Assembly: GCA_026394765.1 (NCBI GenBank)
Contig: JAPKXQ010000034.1
Coordinates: forward strand, 1 to 33,629
DNA: 33,629 bases
Direction of reading: 5' to 3'
Source of the DNA: Methanomicrobiales archaeon
Lineage (GTDB): Archaea > Halobacteriota > Methanomicrobia > Methanomicrobiales > Methanospirillaceae
The translations under genes were made by a program, and so were the position numbers. Of this stretch, positions 3,376-18,913 are shown one piece after another (position 1 is the first letter of the stretch; every line of letters starts with the position of its first letter). The notes under the pieces are model-generated. The model was given only the letters and a program-made list of their open reading frames with translations, was not told where the DNA came from and did no database searches.

Positions 3376-5685
3376 TCATCCCCGATTCGCCGACCAGAAA
3401 CTGAAGAGTTCCTGTAAGGTGCCTGCCCTCCATCCGGCCCCGGCAAGAAGTGAGGCAGCTTGTCCCCTGACCGCCTTGTTCCGGTGGCGCATCCCGCGGG
3501 TGAGGGCGGGGACTGCTGCGGGACCGAGGTGGATAAATACCGTGGTAGCATCCTCGCGAACCTCCTCGCAATCGTCAGCAAGGAGGGAGAGAAGCACATC
3601 CTCACCTGCAGATCCCATTCCCACCAGTGCTGGAAAGACTGCTGCCCGCACCCACGGGTCATTATCACTGGCAAGAAGTGAGAGTGTCGCCACGGCGTCA
3701 TGGCCCTGGAGGCTTACAAGGAGCCGTGCCAATTCCACCTTCACTCTTAATGGACGCCCATCCTCCCGGATCTGTTCCAGTATCCTCTGAAAAACATGTG
3801 TCGAGCCATTTTGGAGGAGAAGGATCGCTGCTTTCCTGACCTCGGCATCGTCTCCTATGGCAGAACTGATTAATTCTCCAGTGGCAGCATCTCCAAGGCC
3901 TACCAGTGTCTTGACCCCTTCATACCGCGCATGGGGGTTCTGGCTCTTGAGCATACCACAAGCTAACCTGGCTGCCGGAGCCCCCCGCGCGATGAGTGCT
4001 CTTCTGGCCGTCTGGCGGACGGTATGGGAAGGATCGGTCAGGTATGCCGCAACAAGGGGCAGGGCAGGGTCGGCGAGGGTGGCGAGCATGCAGATCAAAC
4101 TCACCTTCCTTTCCGGAGATATCGATGGTGCAATGACCTGGGGGACTTCAGGACCTGGAGGGGAGGTAAGGATCATGGTGGTGAGGAGGGGCATTATTGC
4201 TTCTTTGGGTACTTCTCCACCCAGAGCGAGGATAACGGCAGGAAACGCCCGCTCACCAAAGAGCACCAGGACACATGAAAGTGCGGCCACTACCCCGGGC
4301 TGTGCAACCCTGATACCTTCGAGGACGGCTGGGAGAGCATCGATGCCGATCTTTACCAGAGCTGCACCAATAATACTGATCTGGCCAGGGGTCGCTGATC
4401 CTGCTACTCGGACAAGGACAGGAGAAGCTTCACTGGGGATCTGCAGAAGGATCGCAAACGCTGCCTCACGCTTTCCCTTGTCTTCCCCAAGCAGGGTGGG
4501 TACAAGGTACTCTGCCACTTCCGTGGCCCTGGTGCTCATAAGTGTAATTAGGGATCTTTCAGGGTGAGTGCCACTCTGCACCACAGTATCTAGCAGCAGG
4601 TGGAGCCCCTCTTCTCCCCCTTTGAGGAGCAATCGCCAGGCCCGCCGACGGGCTTGGTGGTTTCCCTGAACTGCGAGGTCGGTGAGTGCTGGAAAGGCTC
4701 GCGACCCAATAGACTGCAGTGCACCTGCGGCAGTGCTCGTCTCCTCGTCAGGAAGATCAGAACTCAAAATCGCTATGCAGGTTACTACTGCAATGTCGAG
4801 GGCCGGGCCCCCCACCATCGTAAGGATAACTGCTCCTGCCGACCGTATCCTGGGATCATCACTTCTCGTGAGTTCGAGGAGTGGTTGGACCGAAGGCTCC
4901 CCGATCTTTGCAAGTGTCGTCCCAACGATGCCAGGGGCACAGGCCGGGTCTTCTTTCACCTTTGCCATGAGATGGGGGACTGCGGTGTCACCAATCCAGA
5001 TCAGGGTCTGGGCTGCTACGGCCCTCACCTCACTGTCCTCGTGAGCGAGGAGCGTGATGAGGTTTGCAAGGGCAGGGTCGCCGATCTTCTTGATCGTCCA
5101 GGCTGCATAGCCCCGCAGCTGGTTTGGGTCCTGCCTCAGGATATTGATCAAAGGCTCTACTGCTGCCTCACCCAGCTCAGAGAGTAACCATGCAACAAAT
5201 CCCCGTGAACGTGCGTCTCCACTCCGAAACTCATCAATTAGCGGAGCTATCGTCGGCTCGCCGATCCTCCTGACAAGGCGGGCGGCATACCCGTAATATT
5301 TGTCCCTCTGGCTGTTGATCTCCCGTATGAGCGACTCTATTGCAGGACGTTCCATTTCGGCAAGCGCGTCTATTATCTCGTCCTGACTAGTGACAGGGGC
5401 TTTTGAGAGGGCATGGATCAGTGGTTGGACTGCGGGTTCTCCGATACGGGAGAGGGCAGAGAGAGCTGCGCCTCGGGCCGGTTGCTGCGCTCTGCATATA
5501 AAGTCGGCAAGGGGCCAGACTGATGCGACGCCCAGTGCAGTGAGCTGCTGCACCAGGGCCTCACGACGTGCAGTGACAGGGTCGCCAAGCCCATTAATGA
5601 GGCCGATCACCTCCTGCGGAGGCGTCATAACTGGGATAGGGAGGGGTGGGGATGGGGGCGGGACCTGGTGGGAGGACGAGGGCAA
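3376..5685 (-). CDS. HEAT-repeat (PBS-lyase-like) protein, 769 aa
   Basis: Tandem about 30-aa repeats such as IGEPAVQPLIHAL, LGEAAVEPLINILRQD, IGDPALANLITLLAHEDSEVRAVAAQTLIWIGDTAVPHL. Pro-rich N-terminus MPSSSHQVPPPSPPLPIPVMTPP. Confidence 0.92.
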   Translation of the reverse strand: MPSSSHQVPPPSPPLPIPVMTPPQEVIGLINGLGDPVTARREALVQQLTALGVASVWPLADFICRAQQPARGAALSALSRIGEPAVQPLIHALSKAPVTSQDEIIDALAEMERPAIESLIREINSQRDKYYGYAARLVRRIGEPTIAPLIDEFRSGDARSRGFVAWLLSELGEAAVEPLINILRQDPNQLRGYAAWTIKKIGDPALANLITLLAHEDSEVRAVAAQTLIWIGDTAVPHLMAKVKEDPACAPGIVGTTLAKIGEPSVQPLLELTRSDDPRIRSAGAVILTMVGGPALDIAVVTCIAILSSDLPDEETSTAAGALQSIGSRAFPALTDLAVQGNHQARRRAWRLLLKGGEEGLHLLLDTVVQSGTHPERSLITLMSTRATEVAEYLVPTLLGEDKGKREAAFAILLQIPSEASPVLVRVAGSATPGQISIIGAALVKIGIDALPAVLEGIRVAQPGVVAALSCVLVLFGERAFPAVILALGGEVPKEAIMPLLTTMILTSPPGPEVPQVIAPSISPERKVSLICMLATLADPALPLVAAYLTDPSHTVRQTARRALIARGAPAARLACGMLKSQNPHARYEGVKTLVGLGDAATGELISSAIGDDAEVRKAAILLLQNGSTHVFQRILEQIREDGRPLRVKVELARLLVSLQGHDAVATLSLLASDNDPWVRAAVFPALVGMGSAGEDVLLSLLADDCEEVREDATTVFIHLGPAAVPALTRGMRHRNKAVRGQAASLLAGAGWRAGTLQELFSFWSANRG

Positions 5686-5706
5686 ACGAACTGGTGAAGG
5701 AGGTAT

Positions 5707-7188
5707 CTACACCTGGGGGCGCATTGGCAGGGGCCCCCTGCTAGAGACAGGATGTCCTGCGCCCCCTACGGCAGGTGCAGAAGATGGAGAGAGTGTTGGT
5801 GCACACCATGGACACCCGGGCAGGGAGTCCCGATAATAATGCCGGGAGTTTATCTGGCATTGCGTGAGCCTGGAAAACTCATAGAGGAGGGCTGTATACC
5901 ATTCCTGTGCCTTGGGCCTGATCGAGGGATTCCTGTGGCCAGGGACAAAAGCCCTAAAAAAAAGCTGCTGGAGGGGCTCAGGGACTCGTTGGTAGGGGGG
6001 AGCAAACTCGGGGGGCGTGACACCCTTAAGTCCCTCCCGATAGGGAAAGTGGCCAAGTCGGATCTTATCCGGGGTCGCAGGGGCGTTTCTCACAAGCGGA
6101 CCTCTTGCCTGGAACGGGTGGGTACCGTCCATCAGGAGGCGGAAGACAAGGACCGCGAGGGCAAAGAGGTCTGCATTCCGTTGCGCTGCCTCATCCCGAA
6201 GAGGGCTGCGGAAGGTCAACCCTGGTAGGAACTCAGGAGGGAGGTACTCTGGAGAGCCGACCCGTGTCGGAAAGATCCTCCCGGTCCCTGGATCTTTAAC
6301 CTGGAACGAGTCGCAATCGATGATGCAGACCTTCGCACTGGGTGAGATCAATATGTTGGTCTCCCGCAGGTCACCGATCGAATGACCTTTTGCATGGACC
6401 GCATGGACCACCATCACCAGGTTCACAGCGGTTGCGAGGAGGTGGCGCCATGTGAACTCTTCCCCGCAGATCCTTGTCCGGTCTGCTGGGTCGAAGTAAC
6501 GGTGTGCCTCGCGGTAACGGGATGTGTCGACCAGGGCCATCATGTATCCGGCGAACTGCTGCTGTGCAGCGTCATGGTACAATACAGCATGTGGCCAGGC
6601 GATCGAGGGCGGTACATTCCGGTCATCGGGGGGGTTTGCAATCATCACCCCGATCTTTTCGGCAATATCTGATGATAGGCGATCGCGATGATAGATCTTG
6701 GCACATGAGGTAGGGTTCCCAACAATGAAGTGTATCGCACCTTCACCCCCCTGACGGTGCATCGGACTGATGGTGAGGGGGGTCCCTTCTGTGGTATACA
6801 CCGTGGTCAGCTCATCGTGACTTTTTCCCTGAACAGATACGTCTTTTGCACCATCGATGAGGGTGACCGAGAAGTACACCATGCCTTCGCCTTTGTTCGT
6901 CCTAACCTCGACCTTTCCCAGGTGGCGGGTTGAATCACCCATCCCTGAGGTACGAAGAGAGAAGGGCACCTCCACAGGTGAATGAACCATATTCAGAGAA
7001 TTAGGGAGATTGACCCAGGGCTTGTCAGCATGGAGCGTGCCGGCAAGGAGATCGCCACCAGTATGAGCAATTGCAATAACCCCAGATAGTGTTGCACCCC
7101 TGGAGACCGCATGGTAAGAGAAAAAACTCTGGGAGATAGTGATCCCGGGTCGGTCAGGGTGAGCAGCCTGAATATCCATAATGATCAC
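5707..7188 (-). CDS. Ser/Thr protein kinase-like protein with an extra N-terminal domain and a C-terminal Cys/His segment
   Basis: Candidate ATP-binding Lys in SCAKIYHRD; catalytic-loop-like HAKGHSIGDLRETNILIS; DFG-equivalent IDCDSFQV; GSPEYLPPEF; C-terminal CQINSRHYYRDSLPGCPWC. Confidence 0.85.
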   Translation of the reverse strand: MIIMDIQAAHPDRPGITISQSFFSYHAVSRGATLSGVIAIAHTGGDLLAGTLHADKPWVNLPNSLNMVHSPVEVPFSLRTSGMGDSTRHLGKVEVRTNKGEGMVYFSVTLIDGAKDVSVQGKSHDELTTVYTTEGTPLTISPMHRQGGEGAIHFIVGNPTSCAKIYHRDRLSSDIAEKIGVMIANPPDDRNVPPSIAWPHAVLYHDAAQQQFAGYMMALVDTSRYREAHRYFDPADRTRICGEEFTWRHLLATAVNLVMVVHAVHAKGHSIGDLRETNILISPSAKVCIIDCDSFQVKDPGTGRIFPTRVGSPEYLPPEFLPGLTFRSPLRDEAAQRNADLFALAVLVFRLLMDGTHPFQARGPLVRNAPATPDKIRLGHFPYREGLKGVTPPEFAPPYQRVPEPLQQLFFRAFVPGHRNPSIRPKAQEWYTALLYEFSRLTQCQINSRHYYRDSLPGCPWCAPTLSPSSAPAVGGAGHPVSSRGPLPMRPQV

Positions 7189-7380
7189 CCCCTCTATCTG
7201 GTATTGCAGGGTTAAGTGGTGGGATCAGTGCGGTCCATTCCTCCAGGATACTTGTTCTTGCATTATGTATTAAATTCCCATAATAAATCTATATTTCGGT
7301 GAGAGGAGCCCATCGGAGATGAGTTGTGGTATTTAGGGGCCAGATCTGCGAATGGATCCAGGGTGGAGCGGGAGTTTTTC

Positions 7381-8283
7381 TTACAGAATTGCAACTGCGA
7401 GTGTCTTGTCGTCAGGTGAGACCATACCCATACGGGGTGATGAGAGGAGTCGTGTAATATCTCCCACCACGGCATCATGACTGGAAGAGTCAGCAATATA
7501 TTGGAAGAGCGGGGAGAAGAAGGGAACATAAGGGACGTGATCAGGTCCCTGTCGGGTGAGGACAGCCCCTTGACAGCCGTCGGTGAAGGCTGCGACCGCG
7601 AAAGTTGAGCCCATCCATGGAGTCATCCGGAATGACTCCTCCCAACAGTCAGAGGTGAGCGGCACCACCTCGTTCACATACTCCCCCCGGTGAGGCGCTG
7701 ATGCAAGGATATAATCCTCATGTTGGAGGATGACGACCCCGCCGTCCCCGATATGGCCGATTGCCACTGAAGGGCCACTTATAAGGACGAGTATCAGGGT
7801 ACACGCATATGCACGTAACGATAATCTGGCCCGCGACGCCTCATCATCCAGGCATTTTCGAGCCTGATGTGCTGCACGAATGATGAGAGGACGAGGGTCG
7901 GGTACTGCCCGGGTAGTGGTTAGGAAGGAGGTTCGGACTTCTTCAAGTGCTGATAAAACCGCACAAGAGGCTCCTTCTAATGATCTATCGGCAGACCCAA
8001 GTCCATCGGCGAGGGCAATTACAGCCCGGGATTTAGCACGGGGGAAATTTAGGGCAGTCAGGTATGCGCAGTGGTCCTGGCACGGCAGTCCTTTACTGCG
8101 ATGGGACTGCCCAATCACCGATGTGCCTACGATGAATGGGCGTGGCTTGGTCCCTTTAACACTGGGCTTGCTCATACTTGGGAAAGAAGGTTTTGGGGTT
8201 TGTGCTGGGTAAGGATATGCCACTGGAGACGCATCCAGAGGCCTTTCAATCCCGGCTTTTATAGTCCAGTCGCGAGCTGTCAA
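7381..8283 (-). CDS. PP2C-family protein phosphatase
   Basis: Metal-binding PP2C motifs: ALADGLGSADRS, AIGHIGDGGVV, AAFTDGCQG, SPDDKTLAVAIL. Start codon uncertain. Confidence 0.85.
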   Translation of the reverse strand: MTARDWTIKAGIERPLDASPVAYPYPAQTPKPSFPSMSKPSVKGTKPRPFIVGTSVIGQSHRSKGLPCQDHCAYLTALNFPRAKSRAVIALADGLGSADRSLEGASCAVLSALEEVRTSFLTTTRAVPDPRPLIIRAAHQARKCLDDEASRARLSLRAYACTLILVLISGPSVAIGHIGDGGVVILQHEDYILASAPHRGEYVNEVVPLTSDCWEESFRMTPWMGSTFAVAAFTDGCQGAVLTRQGPDHVPYVPFFSPLFQYIADSSSHDAVVGDITRLLSSPRMGMVSPDDKTLAVAIL

Positions 8284-8295
8284 AAAACCCCGCCA

Positions 8296-9078
8296 TCATG
8301 TCGGGACGCTGCCCCACCCTTGAGGGCCAGTAGGATTCTCGATTGTGATCTGCTCTCCAATACGGGAGTCCGAAATTGTCGCAAGACTTTTTGAGAGCCA
8401 TACGAACATCTCTGCGAAGTGCGTCTCTTTCAGCATGAGAGGGGGCCTGGTCGGGGGGGTTATCTGGGAGAGGATCTGAATGTTTGCCTTGTCCACCCCA
8501 AGCGCCCAGAAGAGGAACTTCTTGTCCCTTTCCCCGTTATGGACTCGGGATATGACCTCGTTCCAGAGGTTGTCGCCGGGCTGCATATCGGTCGGGTGGC
8601 CGTCAGTGATAAGAAAGATCCAGGGCCTGTAGTAATCGACCCCGGTATCACGGTACTCCTTCTTTCGCTTCTCCACCATCTCTATAGCGGCAGATATCGC
8701 TTTGCCCATAGGGGTAAACCCGTCGGCCTCGAGAACCGGCGGCGGGAAATCCTCAATTGAAGAGAATGAATGCACAACATTGACCCCTTTCCCAAAACTT
8801 ATCACTGCAATGTCTACTCTTTTACGTGCGAGCTCATCTGCCACGAGCTCGTCTTTAAAGATCGCAAGTCCTGAGTTGAGCTGATCGATCTTGAACCCAG
8901 CCATCGAGGCCGAGGTATCAAGGACAAGGACTGTGGGGCAGTGAGGCTGCTGTGGGTACGCAATATCGACTATCTCTTCCAATGCCCCCATAGAGCCAGC
9001 TGCGGTGCCCTTTTCCTGTAAATTCCTGGCTGAATCCCCTTCGCCTGTCATATGCAGTCGTATGTTGGATCTTTCCAA
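8296..9078 (-). CDS. von Willebrand factor A (TerY-like) protein
   Basis: MIDAS motif VLDTSASMAG, then GFTPMGKAISAAIEMV and FLITDGHPTDMQPGD. The start may be an internal ATG (MTGEGD or MGALEEI). Confidence 0.87.
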   Translation of the reverse strand: MERSNIRLHMTGEGDSARNLQEKGTAAGSMGALEEIVDIAYPQQPHCPTVLVLDTSASMAGFKIDQLNSGLAIFKDELVADELARKRVDIAVISFGKGVNVVHSFSSIEDFPPPVLEADGFTPMGKAISAAIEMVEKRKKEYRDTGVDYYRPWIFLITDGHPTDMQPGDNLWNEVISRVHNGERDKKFLFWALGVDKANIQILSQITPPTRPPLMLKETHFAEMFVWLSKSLATISDSRIGEQITIENPTGPQGWGSVPT

Positions 9079-9229
9079 TATATCATATGCGTGCCAAAGG
9101 CAATGCCACTATCAGTGCACCAGACCATTCCGTCCAGGATTGTTTGTGTTTGGGGTCATTGTAACCCAGATAGAGGTGGGCATCATACCGATCACAGGAA
9201 GACAAATCGAGGTTGATCGTGATCCCAGA

Positions 9230-9880
9230 TCACCTGCTGTGGAGGGATCGCTTCTTTGCCTTCACTATCTGGTAAGGGTCAAAGAGCCTGATAAGACGTA
9301 GCTCGATCTCGTCACCATCGGTGATGGTGGTGATATCAGAGACCATCTTCGCAAGGTCGATCCAGATCACGAGGTCCTTATCGGCCCCTTCTGAGGTAGT
9401 GGAAGCCCTTTTGAGATGGGCCTCCTCGCTGGCATTTGTCCGAAACCTCCCTATCATATAGTCATTCATCACTAGGCGCGAGTTCCTCTCGAATTTTTCG
9501 ACTCTTTCCTCGTCCAGTTCCAAAATTCCTGCAATAGCAGTGACTATCAGGCCATAAGTCTTATTTCCTGTGAGGCCCGGGTCTACAACGAGGATCCTGG
9601 CAGATCCCGTAGTATCGCTCCCCTCCACTCTGATGACCCTGGAGATATCAATCACATTCACAGTCAAGTCTCGCAGATCGATCGCACCTGCGATGTAATC
9701 GGGTGCATGTGGGAGCGGAGTGATTGCAGGACACCCCAATACCTCTTGAAGCGTGGTTATCGTCACGGCATAGAGGCGAGTCCCAAACTGGAAAATAAGG
9801 AGATTTTCTCGTTTGGCCCTATTAGCCGGTAATTCCCCGGGGGTGAGGAGGTGTTTTACTCCCCCAGCATGAAAGTTCAT
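9230..9880 (-). CDS. CheW-like chemotaxis coupling protein
   Basis: LLIFQFGTRLYAVTITTLQEVLGCPAITPLPHAPDYIAGAIDLRDLTVNVIDISRVI fits the CheW fold pattern. Its start overlaps the end of the upstream gene (ATGA-type). Confidence 0.83.
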   Translation of the reverse strand: MNFHAGGVKHLLTPGELPANRAKRENLLIFQFGTRLYAVTITTLQEVLGCPAITPLPHAPDYIAGAIDLRDLTVNVIDISRVIRVEGSDTTGSARILVVDPGLTGNKTYGLIVTAIAGILELDEERVEKFERNSRLVMNDYMIGRFRTNASEEAHLKRASTTSEGADKDLVIWIDLAKMVSDITTITDGDEIELRLIRLFDPYQIVKAKKRSLHSR

Positions 9881-10506
9881 CTACTCCTCCAATAGTAGAA
9901 CCCCTTCACAGGCTCCCTCACACCGCCACGGATGAGGAGGTCATGAATACGGGAGAAGTCTACCATAAGCAGCCGCATGTCTGACCTCCCCTCATCTCCT
10001 CCTGTCACTTCAACACTACCCGTCCGCCTGGAGAGGACGCCGGTGACCACCTGGTGTGCAGCACTCGCAAGAGGCATGGTATAAGGGAGGACGTCTCCCC
10101 TGGCGATCTGGTAGATGTCAGTCACCACGTCCACGACGAGGCCCCATGCAGCACCTTCAGAATCACGTCCTTTCATCATGATGAGCGTCTGTCCTTCAGC
10201 AGTACTGCGTGGGTAGCCAAAGAGCATGCGGGTGTCGATGATGAGGGTGATCTCGTCTCCTTCCTTTATGCAGCCGAGGAGGAAGGCTGGTGCATCGTAT
10301 ACCTGTATGAGTTGTGCTCTTATCGATTCACTATACTTCATGAATGTTTCAACAGTCCGGGCATCAAAGACAAACGCAGTATCTTGAACTGAGAATATGA
10401 CAATATTGAGAGACCTGTCTCCTTCACCCTCCAGAGGGGACTCGAGGACCTTTCGGAATATTTTAGCCCTCTCCTCGATTGCAGGGGGAAGTTCCGGTGA
10501 TGTCAT
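9877..10506 (-). CDS. divergent CheW-like protein
   Basis: NIVIFSVQDTAFVFDARTVETFMKYSESIRAQLIQVYDAPAFLLGCIKEGDEITLIIDTRMLFG; CheW-like order of strands but divergent. Confidence 0.7.
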   Translation of the reverse strand: MTSPELPPAIEERAKIFRKVLESPLEGEGDRSLNIVIFSVQDTAFVFDARTVETFMKYSESIRAQLIQVYDAPAFLLGCIKEGDEITLIIDTRMLFGYPRSTAEGQTLIMMKGRDSEGAAWGLVVDVVTDIYQIARGDVLPYTMPLASAAHQVVTGVLSRRTGSVEVTGGDEGRSDMRLLMVDFSRIHDLLIRGGVREPVKGFYYWRSR

Positions 10507-10582
10507 AGTAACCTAAGGCGAGAAAGAGGAGATGAGGCAGGGATGGTTAAATATGTTGTTGTGTCTTTCCCGAAAGGGTGAT

Positions 10583-11161
10583 TTATATCTCCTTCTCAAT
10601 GTCTTGGATAATCCGCCGCATATCGATCCAGATGATGATCTGGTCGGCGTCCTTTCCATCGATCTTTACCTTACGGTTGATGATCCCCTTGGCATAGGTG
10701 TTGTCCCGTCTCATCTCTGTCGACTTTGTATCGATCTCATCTTTAGTCACGGTTGAGACATTGAGGACGCGGTCGACAAGGATCCCCATCTTCTTTTTTG
10801 TCATCCGCTCATCGAGGACGATGAACCGCATCTTCTCTTCAAGAACTGATTGGTCTTTCGAGACATTTAGGATCTGGCGGATGTCGATGATTGTCGTTAT
10901 CTCGCGGCGGAGTGAGATAACACCCCTGATATACGTGGGGACATTAGGCATCGAGTTGATCTTGGAGAAAGGCACGATCTCCCTAACATCGAAGAGGTCG
11001 ATGGCATAGAGTTCTCCCCCAAGTACGAACTCAACTACCTTCTCCTGCCCTTGATGTCGCTTACTGGTGGGTGATACTATGTCGACAATGCCCCCGCGAT
11101 CATCGGGGGGTGCGGCCCCAGGCCGGGTATCAGCCTGGGGCTCTTCCTGGAGTGAACGCAT
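10583..11161 (-). CDS. CheW-like chemotaxis coupling protein
   Basis: KVVEFVLGGELYAIDLFDVREIVPFSKINSMPNVPTYIRGVISLRREITTIIDIRQIL is typical CheW sequence. Confidence 0.9.
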   Translation of the reverse strand: MRSLQEEPQADTRPGAAPPDDRGGIVDIVSPTSKRHQGQEKVVEFVLGGELYAIDLFDVREIVPFSKINSMPNVPTYIRGVISLRREITTIIDIRQILNVSKDQSVLEEKMRFIVLDERMTKKKMGILVDRVLNVSTVTKDEIDTKSTEMRRDNTYAKGIINRKVKIDGKDADQIIIWIDMRRIIQDIEKEI

Positions 11162-11174
11162 ACGGGAGGCCCCC

Positions 11175-13031
11175 TTACACCTTGAACCTGCTCATCTCCC
11201 TTGAGAGCCGCTCGATAATGACGTTTACGTTGTTTATCACCTTAGATACCTGGTCTATAGCAGCTGACGCTTCTTCAGTGGCGGCAGCAGAGTCCATCGC
11301 CTCTTTGGCAGTCCCCTGGACCAGGCTGTTCACTTCTGATACACTCGCCGAAATCTCCTCGACCGATGCCGCCTGCTCCTCACTTGCGGCGGCGACCTCT
11401 CCCATGTGACCGCTGATCTCTTCGACAGAACGGACGATCTTGTTAAAGACTATAAGGGACTCTGATACTGCAGCCCCACCCGCCTTAACTTCAGATGTCG
11501 CCTGTCCCATAGCACTGGCAGCCCGCTCAGTACTCTTCTGAAGCCTCCCGATGATCCCGGCTATGTTCTCAGCAGATGCCTGGGACTCCTGGGCAAGGGT
11601 CTTGACCTCGTTGGCAACGACGGCAAACCCAAGACCTGCGTCACCCGCTCTCGCGGCTTCGATAGCCGCGTTGAGTGCGAGCATGTTGGTCTGGTCAGCG
11701 ATGTCAGAGATGAGCCCGACTATCTTTCCAATCTCCTCCATCTGCTGCTTAACCTCGTTGATGATGACCTCCACGTCCCCGGCAGACTTGGTGATGCTCC
11801 CCATGCCGTGCTCAGCTTTCTGGGCAAGTTCTGCACCATTCTTCGAGAGCGTATTTGCAACTCCAGTCAGCTTCGAGATCGACTCGGTCTTGGTGGCGAC
11901 CTCCTGGACCGACTTGGAGAGGTCATCGATCGCACGCATGATCTGGCTCATCCCTGTACTGCTCCGCTCGGCGTTCCCGCTCACGATCCCTGAGCTCTTT
12001 GCTAGGGTGGCAGCGCCCGAGGTAATCTCCTCGGCACTCGCGTTCGCCTCCTCGGCGTTCCCTGCAAGTTCCCGTACCTGCTCGTTCACAATCTTTATCG
12101 CTGCTGAAACCTGGTTACCGATGTTTGCAAGGGCGGTCCGGAACTTAATGTAATCTCCTTCGAGCTTGACCTGATCGCTGATACGGGCTGTGAAGTCCCC
12201 CTTCGCAAGTTCGTTGGAGGTAACAAGGATAGGCTCGAGGATGCTGTTCTGGAAGTTCTCGGCAAACTGATCCATTGCACCGGAGAGGGCCCCGATCTCG
12301 TCCTTTCTGTTCATCTTGAGCCTTGTTCCAAGCGACCCGCGACCGATGTCACTCATCATGGCTATGACTGCAGCGAGAGGGCCGGTGATGCTCCGTGTCA
12401 GAATGACCGCAAGTGCCATGGCAATGATGATCCCGACGACTGTGGCTAAGATCATCATGAGCGAAGCATTTGCGAAGAATGCGTCATTGTTGTCACTGAG
12501 GATCTTTGCCTCTCGGGTATTGATCGCATCCATCGCCGCTACTGCTTCAACTGCCGCTGCTCGTGCGGTAAGGAGAGAGGATCCCTTTGCCAGCGCAGCA
12601 TCGACCGCTGCTTTGTCATTCGCTTTTGCTGCTGCAAAAAAGGTAGTCAACTCCCGCTTGACTATTGGGTAGTTGTCATTGAACTTCTTCAATTCCGTGG
12701 CCTCTTCAGAGGTGAGAGCGGTTGCACTGTATGATGCGAGTTTGTCTTCCAGATCTTTGTAGAGCGAGGGAAGAGCTGCATCAATCTCTCCTCTAGACTC
12801 TGGTGCATAGGCATACTGATATGCATCTGCTCTCAGAATCTGGAGAACACTATCGATCTTGCTCATCTGAGAGATAGGGAGCAACCGGTCCTGATACATC
12901 TCCGTGTCTTTGGTATTGATCGTATTCATGTTGGAATAACCAATCCAAGCCACGACGATCATGATTAATACAACCACTAGGAAACTGCCAATCAACTTCT
13001 TACCGAGCGGTATGTTGTCTAGAAATGACAT
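11175..13031 (-). CDS. methyl-accepting chemotaxis protein
   Basis: Two TM segments, HAMP-like RSITGPLAAVIAMMSDIGRG, and signalling hairpin ISDIADQTNMLALNAAIEAARAGDAGLGFAVVANEVKTLAQES. Confidence 0.95.
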   Translation of the reverse strand: MSFLDNIPLGKKLIGSFLVVVLIMIVVAWIGYSNMNTINTKDTEMYQDRLLPISQMSKIDSVLQILRADAYQYAYAPESRGEIDAALPSLYKDLEDKLASYSATALTSEEATELKKFNDNYPIVKRELTTFFAAAKANDKAAVDAALAKGSSLLTARAAAVEAVAAMDAINTREAKILSDNNDAFFANASLMMILATVVGIIIAMALAVILTRSITGPLAAVIAMMSDIGRGSLGTRLKMNRKDEIGALSGAMDQFAENFQNSILEPILVTSNELAKGDFTARISDQVKLEGDYIKFRTALANIGNQVSAAIKIVNEQVRELAGNAEEANASAEEITSGAATLAKSSGIVSGNAERSSTGMSQIMRAIDDLSKSVQEVATKTESISKLTGVANTLSKNGAELAQKAEHGMGSITKSAGDVEVIINEVKQQMEEIGKIVGLISDIADQTNMLALNAAIEAARAGDAGLGFAVVANEVKTLAQESQASAENIAGIIGRLQKSTERAASAMGQATSEVKAGGAAVSESLIVFNKIVRSVEEISGHMGEVAAASEEQAASVEEISASVSEVNSLVQGTAKEAMDSAAATEEASAAIDQVSKVINNVNVIIERLSREMSRFKV

Positions 13032-16252: not shown

Positions 16253-18913
16253 TTATGCCTCTCCGGGGTCTGCCATGGCCTCCCCTGCCATCCACCCTGT
16301 GATTCCCTGGCGTCGCGGGTTATACTCCTTAAACTGATGGAGCGAGACTGTGAGGTCTCGGGTAAACGCGAAGTAACCGACCTGGGTACTCCTGCAGAGC
16401 TTAAATGCCATGTCCATCAAACCTCGAGGGTCGGGTCGAGCCTCACCAAGCCATATATGGAAGATATTGCCCCCGTCGACTATGGGAAAAAAGACGTGCT
16501 CGATCTCTATCCTTTTTGCAAGGGAGATCCTGGCCCCGGGCGCTACATGCGTCCCATTCGTGTAGTAAATGGGGAGGTCACGTGTAGATCCTATCATCTC
16601 CAATGCCCTGGAGAGGTCTCCCTTGATGAGCCGCATGGCAGAGTCCCGGAATCCCCTGTTGAGTAGGTCTGAAACTGCAAATCTCTGACCTGTCGTCTCG
16701 GCAGGAGTCCGTGCAAGGGCGATCTCCATCCCGTAACGAGCTGATAGATCTTTTGCATGGCGCTCCATCTCAGACATAGCCCTGACTGCGAGCTTAAACG
16801 CCTTATTCGATTCATGGAGCTGAGCACCGGTATGGTGCTGCACCATCTCGTTCACTCCTACCACCCCGATGGTGTAGACGAGGCCCTTAATATCGACAGC
16901 AGCTGCACCCCGTTCCCCGGTGACCGGGTCACGCGGACGCTGCTGTGCAAACGGCATCCGGAAGTGAGCCTGAATAAGTTCCATCCACCTCCGTTTGATG
17001 ATAAAGACTTCTATTGCAATGTCCATTAAGAGACAGAGCTCGGCAAAGAGCCGTTCGTCAGATCCTTCGGCACGGTACGCAGCACGGGGGCAGTTGACCG
17101 AGACGACCTGCCATGAGCCCATTGAGAAGTGCATCCCATCTTTGAAGAGAAGTTTCTCGTCAAAGCCCGCGTCCTCGTCAGCGAGTGAGGAAAATTGATA
17201 AGCGCAGCACTGGTAGCACGAGATACCTTTCCCGGCACCTCGATATCCAGGCATCTGATTGTCATAGTAGGGAGTCCCGAACTTGGAGGCTAAGGAAAAG
17301 GTCATCAGGTAGAGATCGCGGTACGTAGGGAGGTCGGGGTTGGCCCGGTTGAATTCATCATCCTCGTGCATGAAGTCGGGCTCGATGCTGATCTCGGGCT
17401 TGGGAAAGCTGAAGGGCTTGCCCCAGTAGTCCCCCTCCATCATAACCTCCATGAGGGCTTTGAAGAGGAGGCGGACCTCACGCTCGAACTCCTGGTAGGT
17501 CCTCAGCGGTGCCATGATACCGTCCCATACTCGCCCCTTATAAACTACGGGCTTGTCCTTCCAAAGCAATGGGACCCCCGGACTGAGCTGGACCGAAGAG
17601 AAGACGAGCTGGCCTCCTCGTGCCACCATCATCTGGGTCATCTCGTACACAAACATCTGCATCAGCTGCCGGATCACGTCGTACGAGACTCCCTCAAAGA
17701 AGGGTGCCATGAAGGTGAGGAAGTTGTAGTAGCCCTGTCCACCGGCAAAGTTGGTCTGGGCGCTCCCAAGGGCCTTTACTGCATGGAGGACCGCGACCTC
17801 TGGGCGCATTGCGGGTCCGGCGACTGAAGCCCTTGTCCCGTTCCCATCTGGCATCAGACCATAGTAGAAGAAGTAGCGGAGGTCCCAGTCCTGGCAGTTG
17901 TGTACGACTAGGCCTCCTGCTGCATAAAACATGTGGTCCCACTCATCACTCCCTTCGAGGAAGAGGTCGTACACATAGGGGCCCGATGGAGTGGCAGGAG
18001 ATAGAGCAACGACGGTCTCGCTCTTGGAACAGTCCGGGTCTGGTACAGTAACCGGCTGCGAATAGAGCTCATCACCTAAAGCGATCTCTTCGGTGCGGAG
18101 AATTCCGCGACCCTTGACTGGTATGCGATGGTCCTTTGTTGCCAGAAGAGTCTTATCACCTGATGTCTGCACCAAAAGGACCTCATTAGCACCCACCCTC
18201 CGGCGTGTGCCTTTCAGGACTCTCCGATACCCCCTGGGACCGAGGACTGCGAGATCATCAGGCTGGAGCGTATCGCTGTCAAAGGAAAGACCATCAAGAC
18301 GTATCACCCTGACTGCCCCCAACTCCCGACAGGTCACGGTAGTACTACCATCCAGGCAGAATGGCCGGGTGCCAAAGTATTCCAAATCATGGATATGAAG
18401 GTCGCCAAAGAGGTGGTGGTCAGCGAGGTGAGGGGGGAGCTGGAGGAGGTACTGCTCCTTGCTGATCTTATCGGCCTTCTTTTTGTGGGATGTCTCGGCA
18501 TTGTCCTGGAGATTTGCATTGTCCTTGGCCTCGAACCCCCTGCCGACATCGATCAGATGGGCGTCGTACACCGGGGTCCCGACCCGTGTGCAGACATTAC
18601 GGTACTGGATCATCCCACGCTCCAGAAGCGTAATGTTCACGATCTCACGAATAAGGGGGCCGGAGAGAGAGGAGAGACCAAGGGTGAGGATCCGGCGCTC
18701 GACTGCTGTTGCGATCTCCTGAGCGAGGTCCTCCCCTGCACCCTCATACCCATAGAAGATCTGGACAAGTTTTGTCTCCTGGACGATCTGGCGGACTATC
18801 CTGGCACGGTCCCATTCCACGATATGGCCATCAGTTGTCCTCACCGGGGGCATCGGAGCGACAAAGACTCCGTCCAGGGTCGTCTGCCAAGTCGAGGTCT
18901 TCATTGGGATCAC
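16253..18913 (-). CDS. nrdD: anaerobic (class III) ribonucleoside-triphosphate reductase, intein-containing
   Basis: ATP-cone-like N-terminus (DGHIVEWDRARIVRQIVQETKL). GDLHIHDLEYFGTRPF, then after the intein CQDWDLRYFFYYGL. Also ISCYQCCAYQF and GGNIFHIWLGEARPD. Confidence 0.9.
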   Translation of the reverse strand: MIPMKTSTWQTTLDGVFVAPMPPVRTTDGHIVEWDRARIVRQIVQETKLVQIFYGYEGAGEDLAQEIATAVERRILTLGLSSLSGPLIREIVNITLLERGMIQYRNVCTRVGTPVYDAHLIDVGRGFEAKDNANLQDNAETSHKKKADKISKEQYLLQLPPHLADHHLFGDLHIHDLEYFGTRPFCLDGSTTVTCRELGAVRVIRLDGLSFDSDTLQPDDLAVLGPRGYRRVLKGTRRRVGANEVLLVQTSGDKTLLATKDHRIPVKGRGILRTEEIALGDELYSQPVTVPDPDCSKSETVVALSPATPSGPYVYDLFLEGSDEWDHMFYAAGGLVVHNCQDWDLRYFFYYGLMPDGNGTRASVAGPAMRPEVAVLHAVKALGSAQTNFAGGQGYYNFLTFMAPFFEGVSYDVIRQLMQMFVYEMTQMMVARGGQLVFSSVQLSPGVPLLWKDKPVVYKGRVWDGIMAPLRTYQEFEREVRLLFKALMEVMMEGDYWGKPFSFPKPEISIEPDFMHEDDEFNRANPDLPTYRDLYLMTFSLASKFGTPYYDNQMPGYRGAGKGISCYQCCAYQFSSLADEDAGFDEKLLFKDGMHFSMGSWQVVSVNCPRAAYRAEGSDERLFAELCLLMDIAIEVFIIKRRWMELIQAHFRMPFAQQRPRDPVTGERGAAAVDIKGLVYTIGVVGVNEMVQHHTGAQLHESNKAFKLAVRAMSEMERHAKDLSARYGMEIALARTPAETTGQRFAVSDLLNRGFRDSAMRLIKGDLSRALEMIGSTRDLPIYYTNGTHVAPGARISLAKRIEIEHVFFPIVDGGNIFHIWLGEARPDPRGLMDMAFKLCRSTQVGYFAFTRDLTVSLHQFKEYNPRRQGITGWMAGEAMADPGEA
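17897..18358 (-). other. 154-aa mini-intein inside NrdD
   Basis: Begins CLDGSTTVTC (splicing block A-like); GDKTLLATKDHRIPV (block B, TxxH); YVYDLFLEGSDEWDHMFYAAGGLVVHN followed by extein Cys (blocks F/G, HN|C). No LAGLIDADG endonuclease segment. Confidence 0.9.

Follow-up and report, generated by a model that had tools for sequence, protein, structure and literature searches.

A putative endonuclease-free mini-intein at the active-site cysteine of an apparently split anaerobic ribonucleotide reductase in Methanomicrobiales

The nrdD gene for the anaerobic ribonucleotide reductase of a Methanomicrobiales archaeon is interrupted by a segment that we interpret, with a probability of about 95%, as a class 1 mini-intein. 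It is an allele without endonuclease in an intein family found at a single nrdD site in Methanomicrobiales and in two other families of the phylum. The gene lies in a stretch of 33,629 nucleotides (the window, meaning here the whole stretch of DNA analysed) from a draft genome of 1.83 Mb in 107 contigs, 79% complete. The window intein is a further instance of a known element type and an ordinary kind of element, and no report of it was found in the literature collection searched, which was partial. Its host, whose sequence suggests a class III ribonucleotide reductase divided into two proteins, is possibly more novel and may matter more than the mini-intein itself.

The interrupted nrdD gene and its insertion site

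Profile searches identified the precursor as NrdD (PF13597, E=1e-122; TIGR02487, E=8e-131, 437 bits, above the cutoff), and its nearest named relatives belong to Methanoregulaceae and other Methanomicrobiales. Translation showed that precursor residues 186-339 (CLDGSTTV...GGLVVHN) coincide exactly with the segment listed in Table 1, in agreement with the original prediction of a 154-aa intein in an anaerobic ribonucleotide reductase, whose boundaries and host identity are both borne out. A match to TIGR01443 (intein C-terminus) was above cutoff in the precursor (17.4 against 15.6 bits), thus the lack of any PF14890 (Intein_splicing) match over the curated cutoff, in the segment as in its whole genome, reflects a limit of model sensitivity. 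The segment alone matched no Pfam family, and a phmmer search against the PDB returned a weak match to NrdJ-1 only (E=0.14). Given the PF14890 and phmmer results, homology was taken from the allelic inteins and from the fold. Elsewhere in the window, genes for HEAT-repeat, protein kinase, PP2C phosphatase and VWA proteins, for three CheW proteins and for one MCP follow one another (3376-13031, reverse strand), a signalling cluster in which kinase/phosphatase components are combined with those of chemotaxis.

Table 1. Features of the nrdD precursor, its putative intein and the stand-alone glycyl-radical protein (window positions unless a contig is named).
Feature	Position	Strand	Description and basis
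nrdD precursor ORF, 886 aa	16253..18913	-	Class III (anaerobic) ribonucleoside-triphosphate reductase, intein-interrupted, without C-terminal Zn/glycyl-radical domain; Pfam/NCBIfam
N-extein, 185 aa	18359..18913	-	Ends ...HDLEYFGTRPF; sequence, empty-site junctions
Mini-intein, 154 aa	17897..18358	-	Empty-site homologs, allelic full-length inteins, AF2 model and Foldseek
C-extein, 547 aa plus stop	16253..17896	-	Begins CQDWDLRYFFYY; sequence, empty-site junctions
Cys1 codon	18356..18358	-	Block A nucleophile; sequence, invariant in all allelic inteins
T74-K-D-H77 (TxxH)	18128..18139	-	Block B; T and H invariant, role after PMC4031507
Scar loop, about residues 101-113	18020..18058	-	Replaces the ~325-aa endonuclease of full-length alleles; alignment, the one part of the model with low confidence (pLDDT about 61)
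Asp131 (VYDL)	17966..17968	-	Block F; invariant
His142	17933..17935	-	Block F; invariant
His153-Asn154	17897..17902	-	Block G; invariant
Cys+1 codon	17894..17896	-	Second nucleophile of splicing, also the conserved active-site cysteine of NrdD (Cys171 in P. copri); aligned with 8p23 residue 175
Stand-alone glycyl-radical protein, 120 aa	G000:C7:49238-49597 (locus L169 about 2239-2598)	+	CPLC..CPDCGS..RVTGYLQ..W..KQQELKDR; six-frame search

The insertion site was defined by relatives in which it is empty. The uninterrupted junction HDLEYFG[TS]RPFCQDWDLRYF[FL]YYGL was present in 91 NrdD ORFs of the fetched loci, a count in which some genomes were fetched twice, and the intein-less relatives read HDLEYFGTRPF followed directly by CQDWDLRYFFYY, with the exteins contiguous at exactly the predicted site. 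Deleting the segment gives back the family sequence exactly, in line with the prediction that the exteins join into a sensible NrdD. In the interrupted NrdD ORFs the same F/C residue pair is split by homologous inteins (CxDG...HN) at the same residue. The segment is thus an in-frame insertion missing from homologs whose exteins are otherwise contiguous, as expected of a class 1 intein. The original prediction was to fall if homologous NrdDs carried the segment as part of the ordinary protein. It stands: exactly this segment is missing from the intein-less homologs, and the other occupants of the site are all full-length inteins.

In an alignment with P. copri NrdD (chain 8p23), the residue that follows the intein (C+1) falls on residue 175. 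Since a second alignment places the glycyl residue at chain position 715, which is Gly711, the numbering is offset by 4 and residue 175 corresponds to Cys171. The conserved cysteine of the reductive half-reaction is Cys79 in the T4 enzyme and Cys175 in that of E. coli (PMC4493059), and inteins tend to insert at catalytic sites (PMC5874633). Because C+1 is NrdD's own active-site cysteine, the unspliced enzyme should be inactive.

Splicing residues, fold and the missing endonuclease

All eight residues C1, T74, H77, D131, H142, H153, N154 and C+1 are kept and invariant among the alleles, so the residue set of a class 1 intein (Cys1, TxxH, block F Asp/His, terminal HN, Cys+1) is complete, as had been anticipated for Cys1, TxxH, the terminal HN and Cys+1; block assignments and residue roles follow PMC4031507. 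The intein has three histidines only, all of them catalytic. The earlier description of the junctions as Cys-rich is right in that one cysteine stands on each side (C1 and C+1) but overstated, the other cysteines (C10 and C110) being internal. The AlphaFold2 model, built from nine sequences of the window and related loci, has a mini-intein fold (pLDDT 92.3, pTM 0.85), and its top Foldseek matches are inteins (Mvu TFIIB, TM 0.79; 7oec, 0.80; Pho RadA, 0.78), in accordance with the HINT fold of class 1 inteins.

The segment was searched against 232 genomes of the order Methanomicrobiales, 51 of which gave matches (best allelic match, E=4e-26). About 48 other genomes of the order carry an allelic intein at the same nrdD residue, leaving out G017 and G189, whose matches are not to this NrdD allele. 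Wherever a single contig includes both ends, as in 46 other genomes, the intein is full-length (45 of these inteins have 449-482 aa; the G068 allele, of 509 aa, is frameshifted), and the alleles of G109 and G118, the latter spread over two contigs, are incomplete on single contigs. The window intein was the only endonuclease-free allele found among the 232 genomes. Outside the order, G422 and G325 carry inteins of 480 and 473 aa of the same family at the same site. Over 150 splicing-domain columns the window intein shares 43-51% identity with the alleles of the order; this homology and the common insertion residue place it in the allelic NrdD intein family of Methanomicrobiales. Single-piece matches elsewhere in the phylum were rejected as NrdD mini-inteins, because their hosts, named by reading the sequences, are an MCM-like helicase (G505), an SMC-like ATPase (G485) and a terminase-like protein (G189), and no relatives of the intein sequence were found in viral contigs.

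The full-length alleles contain a LAGLIDADG endonuclease, whose motifs (LLGFFVSEGN and FLSALFTGDG) were identified by visual inspection of the alignments. Both motif regions fall into the alignment gap of the window intein, which has a loop of about a dozen residues instead, confirming that the endonuclease is absent. With 154 aa and no homing endonuclease domain, the element conforms to the definition of a mini-intein (up to 200 aa, without endonuclease; PMC8229266). Among the unique full-length alleles examined, both LAGLIDADG motif acids are kept in 29, both are lost in L006/L043 and one is lost in L032 and in L045, so other alleles too are undergoing endonuclease decay. This range of endonuclease states at one site supports the loss of the endonuclease. 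In the tree, the mini-intein groups weakly with f4/g20 alleles (support about 76) on a long branch, and phylogeny cannot fix its closest full-length relative. Additionally, several NrdD genes among the f5/g21 loci (L032, L034, L046 and others) have open frames of about 1,700-1,800 aa and are interrupted once more, probably by another intein, close to the position of residue 580 in the window precursor.

Splicing, evolution and alternative readings

Splicing of the window intein is likely, as predicted from the kept residues. With the help of T74/H77 and D131, Cys1 would undergo an N-to-S acyl shift, Cys+1 would attack to form a branched intermediate, Asn154 would cyclise with the assistance of His142/His153, and an S-to-N shift would leave ...TRPF-CQDWD... 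in mature NrdD. NrdD activity requires its activase, and the genome encodes NrdG2; no class I/II reductase was found in it at 79% completeness. Together these two findings favour an NrdD that is needed and hence spliced. Nevertheless, a class I/II reductase is present in 28 of the 41 genomes searched (the 41 include our genome), which means that NrdD may be dispensable here; of the 34 good genomes, 8 have no such reductase.

The mini allele probably derives from a full-length ancestor by in-frame loss of the endonuclease, and would be inherited vertically or through passive recombination, since without the endonuclease it can no longer drive its own homing. The original prediction had left a choice between a late stage of the homing cycle and domestication; the endonuclease-free state fits either, and the single occurrence argues for the transient late stage over domestication. 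One possible refinement of the preferred explanation, rather than an exclusive alternative to it, is a domesticated mini-intein with conditional splicing, in which a C1-C+1 disulfide blocks splicing in oxygen and NrdD matures only under reducing conditions. Such a redox gate might be suggested by the cysteines at both junctions, the insertion at the active-site cysteine, the disulfide precedent in P. abyssi PolII (PMC5874633) and work on internal-disulfide switches that is cited in PMC4031507. We regard it as much less likely, however, given that C1/C+1 pairs are common among inteins and that the mini allele occurs in one genome, with most relatives intein-less, so that no conserved regulatory need is visible.

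A decaying intein that has lost splicing, in an nrdD turning into a pseudogene as a class II reductase takes over, is improbable. In its favour, the mini-intein is only 44-50% identical to its allelic relatives, compared to means of 55-57% at equal host distance, its branch is the longest in the tree, and its GC3 of 0.545 is lower than that of the exteins (0.67-0.71); these features could reflect relaxed constraint, and many relatives also have a class I/II reductase. Against it, the catalytic residues are all intact, the reading frame is open, the exteins share 74-81% identity with relatives from the same order, the mini-intein model is confident, and our genome yielded no class I/II reductase. 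The faster evolution of the intein fits a release from endonuclease function as well as relaxed constraint. An assembly artefact, by which the metagenome assembler collapsed a full-length intein, is still less credible: the genome is a fragmented and incomplete draft, but the segment has at most about 51-53% identity to any full-length allele, its frame is unbroken and the scar sits precisely at the endonuclease position of those alleles. Finally, we can practically dismiss a bacterial-intein-like or Hedgehog HINT domain, or a normal NrdD domain, since, although the fold is common to inteins and Hedgehog proteins (a Hedgehog structure appears at Foldseek rank 50), such readings are contradicted by the uninterrupted empty-site homologs, the HN/C junction and the endonuclease-bearing allelic inteins at the same residue.

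Thus one site in one archaeal order has empty, full-length intact, full-length decayed (L006/L043, L045, L032) and endonuclease-free alleles side by side, a compact natural series for testing the effect of endonuclease loss on splicing and intein survival. Besides, the window intein is a possible source of a small mini-intein.

The apparently split host reductase and the closest known systems

The window NrdD covers PF13597 only to profile position 510 of 562, and all Methanomicrobiales NrdDs examined end soon after GYFAFTRDLTVS. They have neither the Cys4 zinc site nor the RxxGYL glycyl-radical loop, both of which are present in the NrdD of G325, outside the order. A six-frame search found the missing tail as a stand-alone ORF in 29 of 31 genomes, our own included, the two exceptions being 73% and 62% complete. 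The 120-aa protein of our genome (Table 1) covers positions 508-562 of PF13597, complementary to the part matched by NrdD, and its alignment with P. copri NrdD extends over the glycyl residue; the predicted radical site in this copy is Gly95. Of the 25 genomes of the order that were listed in a sample of the phylum, 24 had the free tail protein, and the exception (G056) is also without NrdD. Elsewhere in the phylum the domain mostly forms the end of a longer ORF (about 600-820 aa). A few f8 and f24 genomes have a fused NrdD together with a free copy, a state through which the split may have arisen.

These observations incline us to think that NrdD has lost its Zn/glycyl-radical C-terminus throughout the order and uses a separate subunit of ~120 aa in trans, a function suggested by complementarity and co-occurrence. 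Since the core here would also be spliced at its active-site cysteine, the mature enzyme would be put together from three separated coding pieces. If the NrdD glycyl radical is truly on a separate polypeptide, this would be a natural two-component glycyl radical enzyme; no paper on a split NrdD was found in the partial collection searched. Our genome also contains a second, divergent free glycyl-radical-like ORF (119 aa at 46% identity; G000:C73:1141-1380, reverse strand, locus L170), in which AKAGYL replaces RVTGYL. None of the other genomes searched in the order showed a second copy of such similarity.

Among known systems, the window intein most resembles the full-length NrdD inteins of Methanomicrobiales (for example L051 of Methanoregulaceae, L054/L055 of Methanoculleus and L125 of Methanocalculus, with L150/L151 outside the order), which share its host residue and catalytic residues but have the ~325-aa LAGLIDADG endonuclease that it lacks. 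In phages, one distant NrdD intein was found, that of Fusobacterium phage phiKSUM (OR492276), whose nrdD (L158) appears broken over at least three ORFs. This intein is inserted at the equivalent position, so that the active-site Cys follows it immediately (QPN/CLLADI), but it is 464 aa long with an endonuclease-sized insert, belongs to a bacterial phage and shows only 31% identity over the first 81 residues. Moreover, the archaeal mini-inteins whose structures have been determined (M. vulcanius and M. jannaschii TFIIB, P. horikoshii RadA) have the same HINT fold without an endonuclease (TM about 0.7-0.8), but differ in host protein and insertion site and are 16-19% identical to the window intein.
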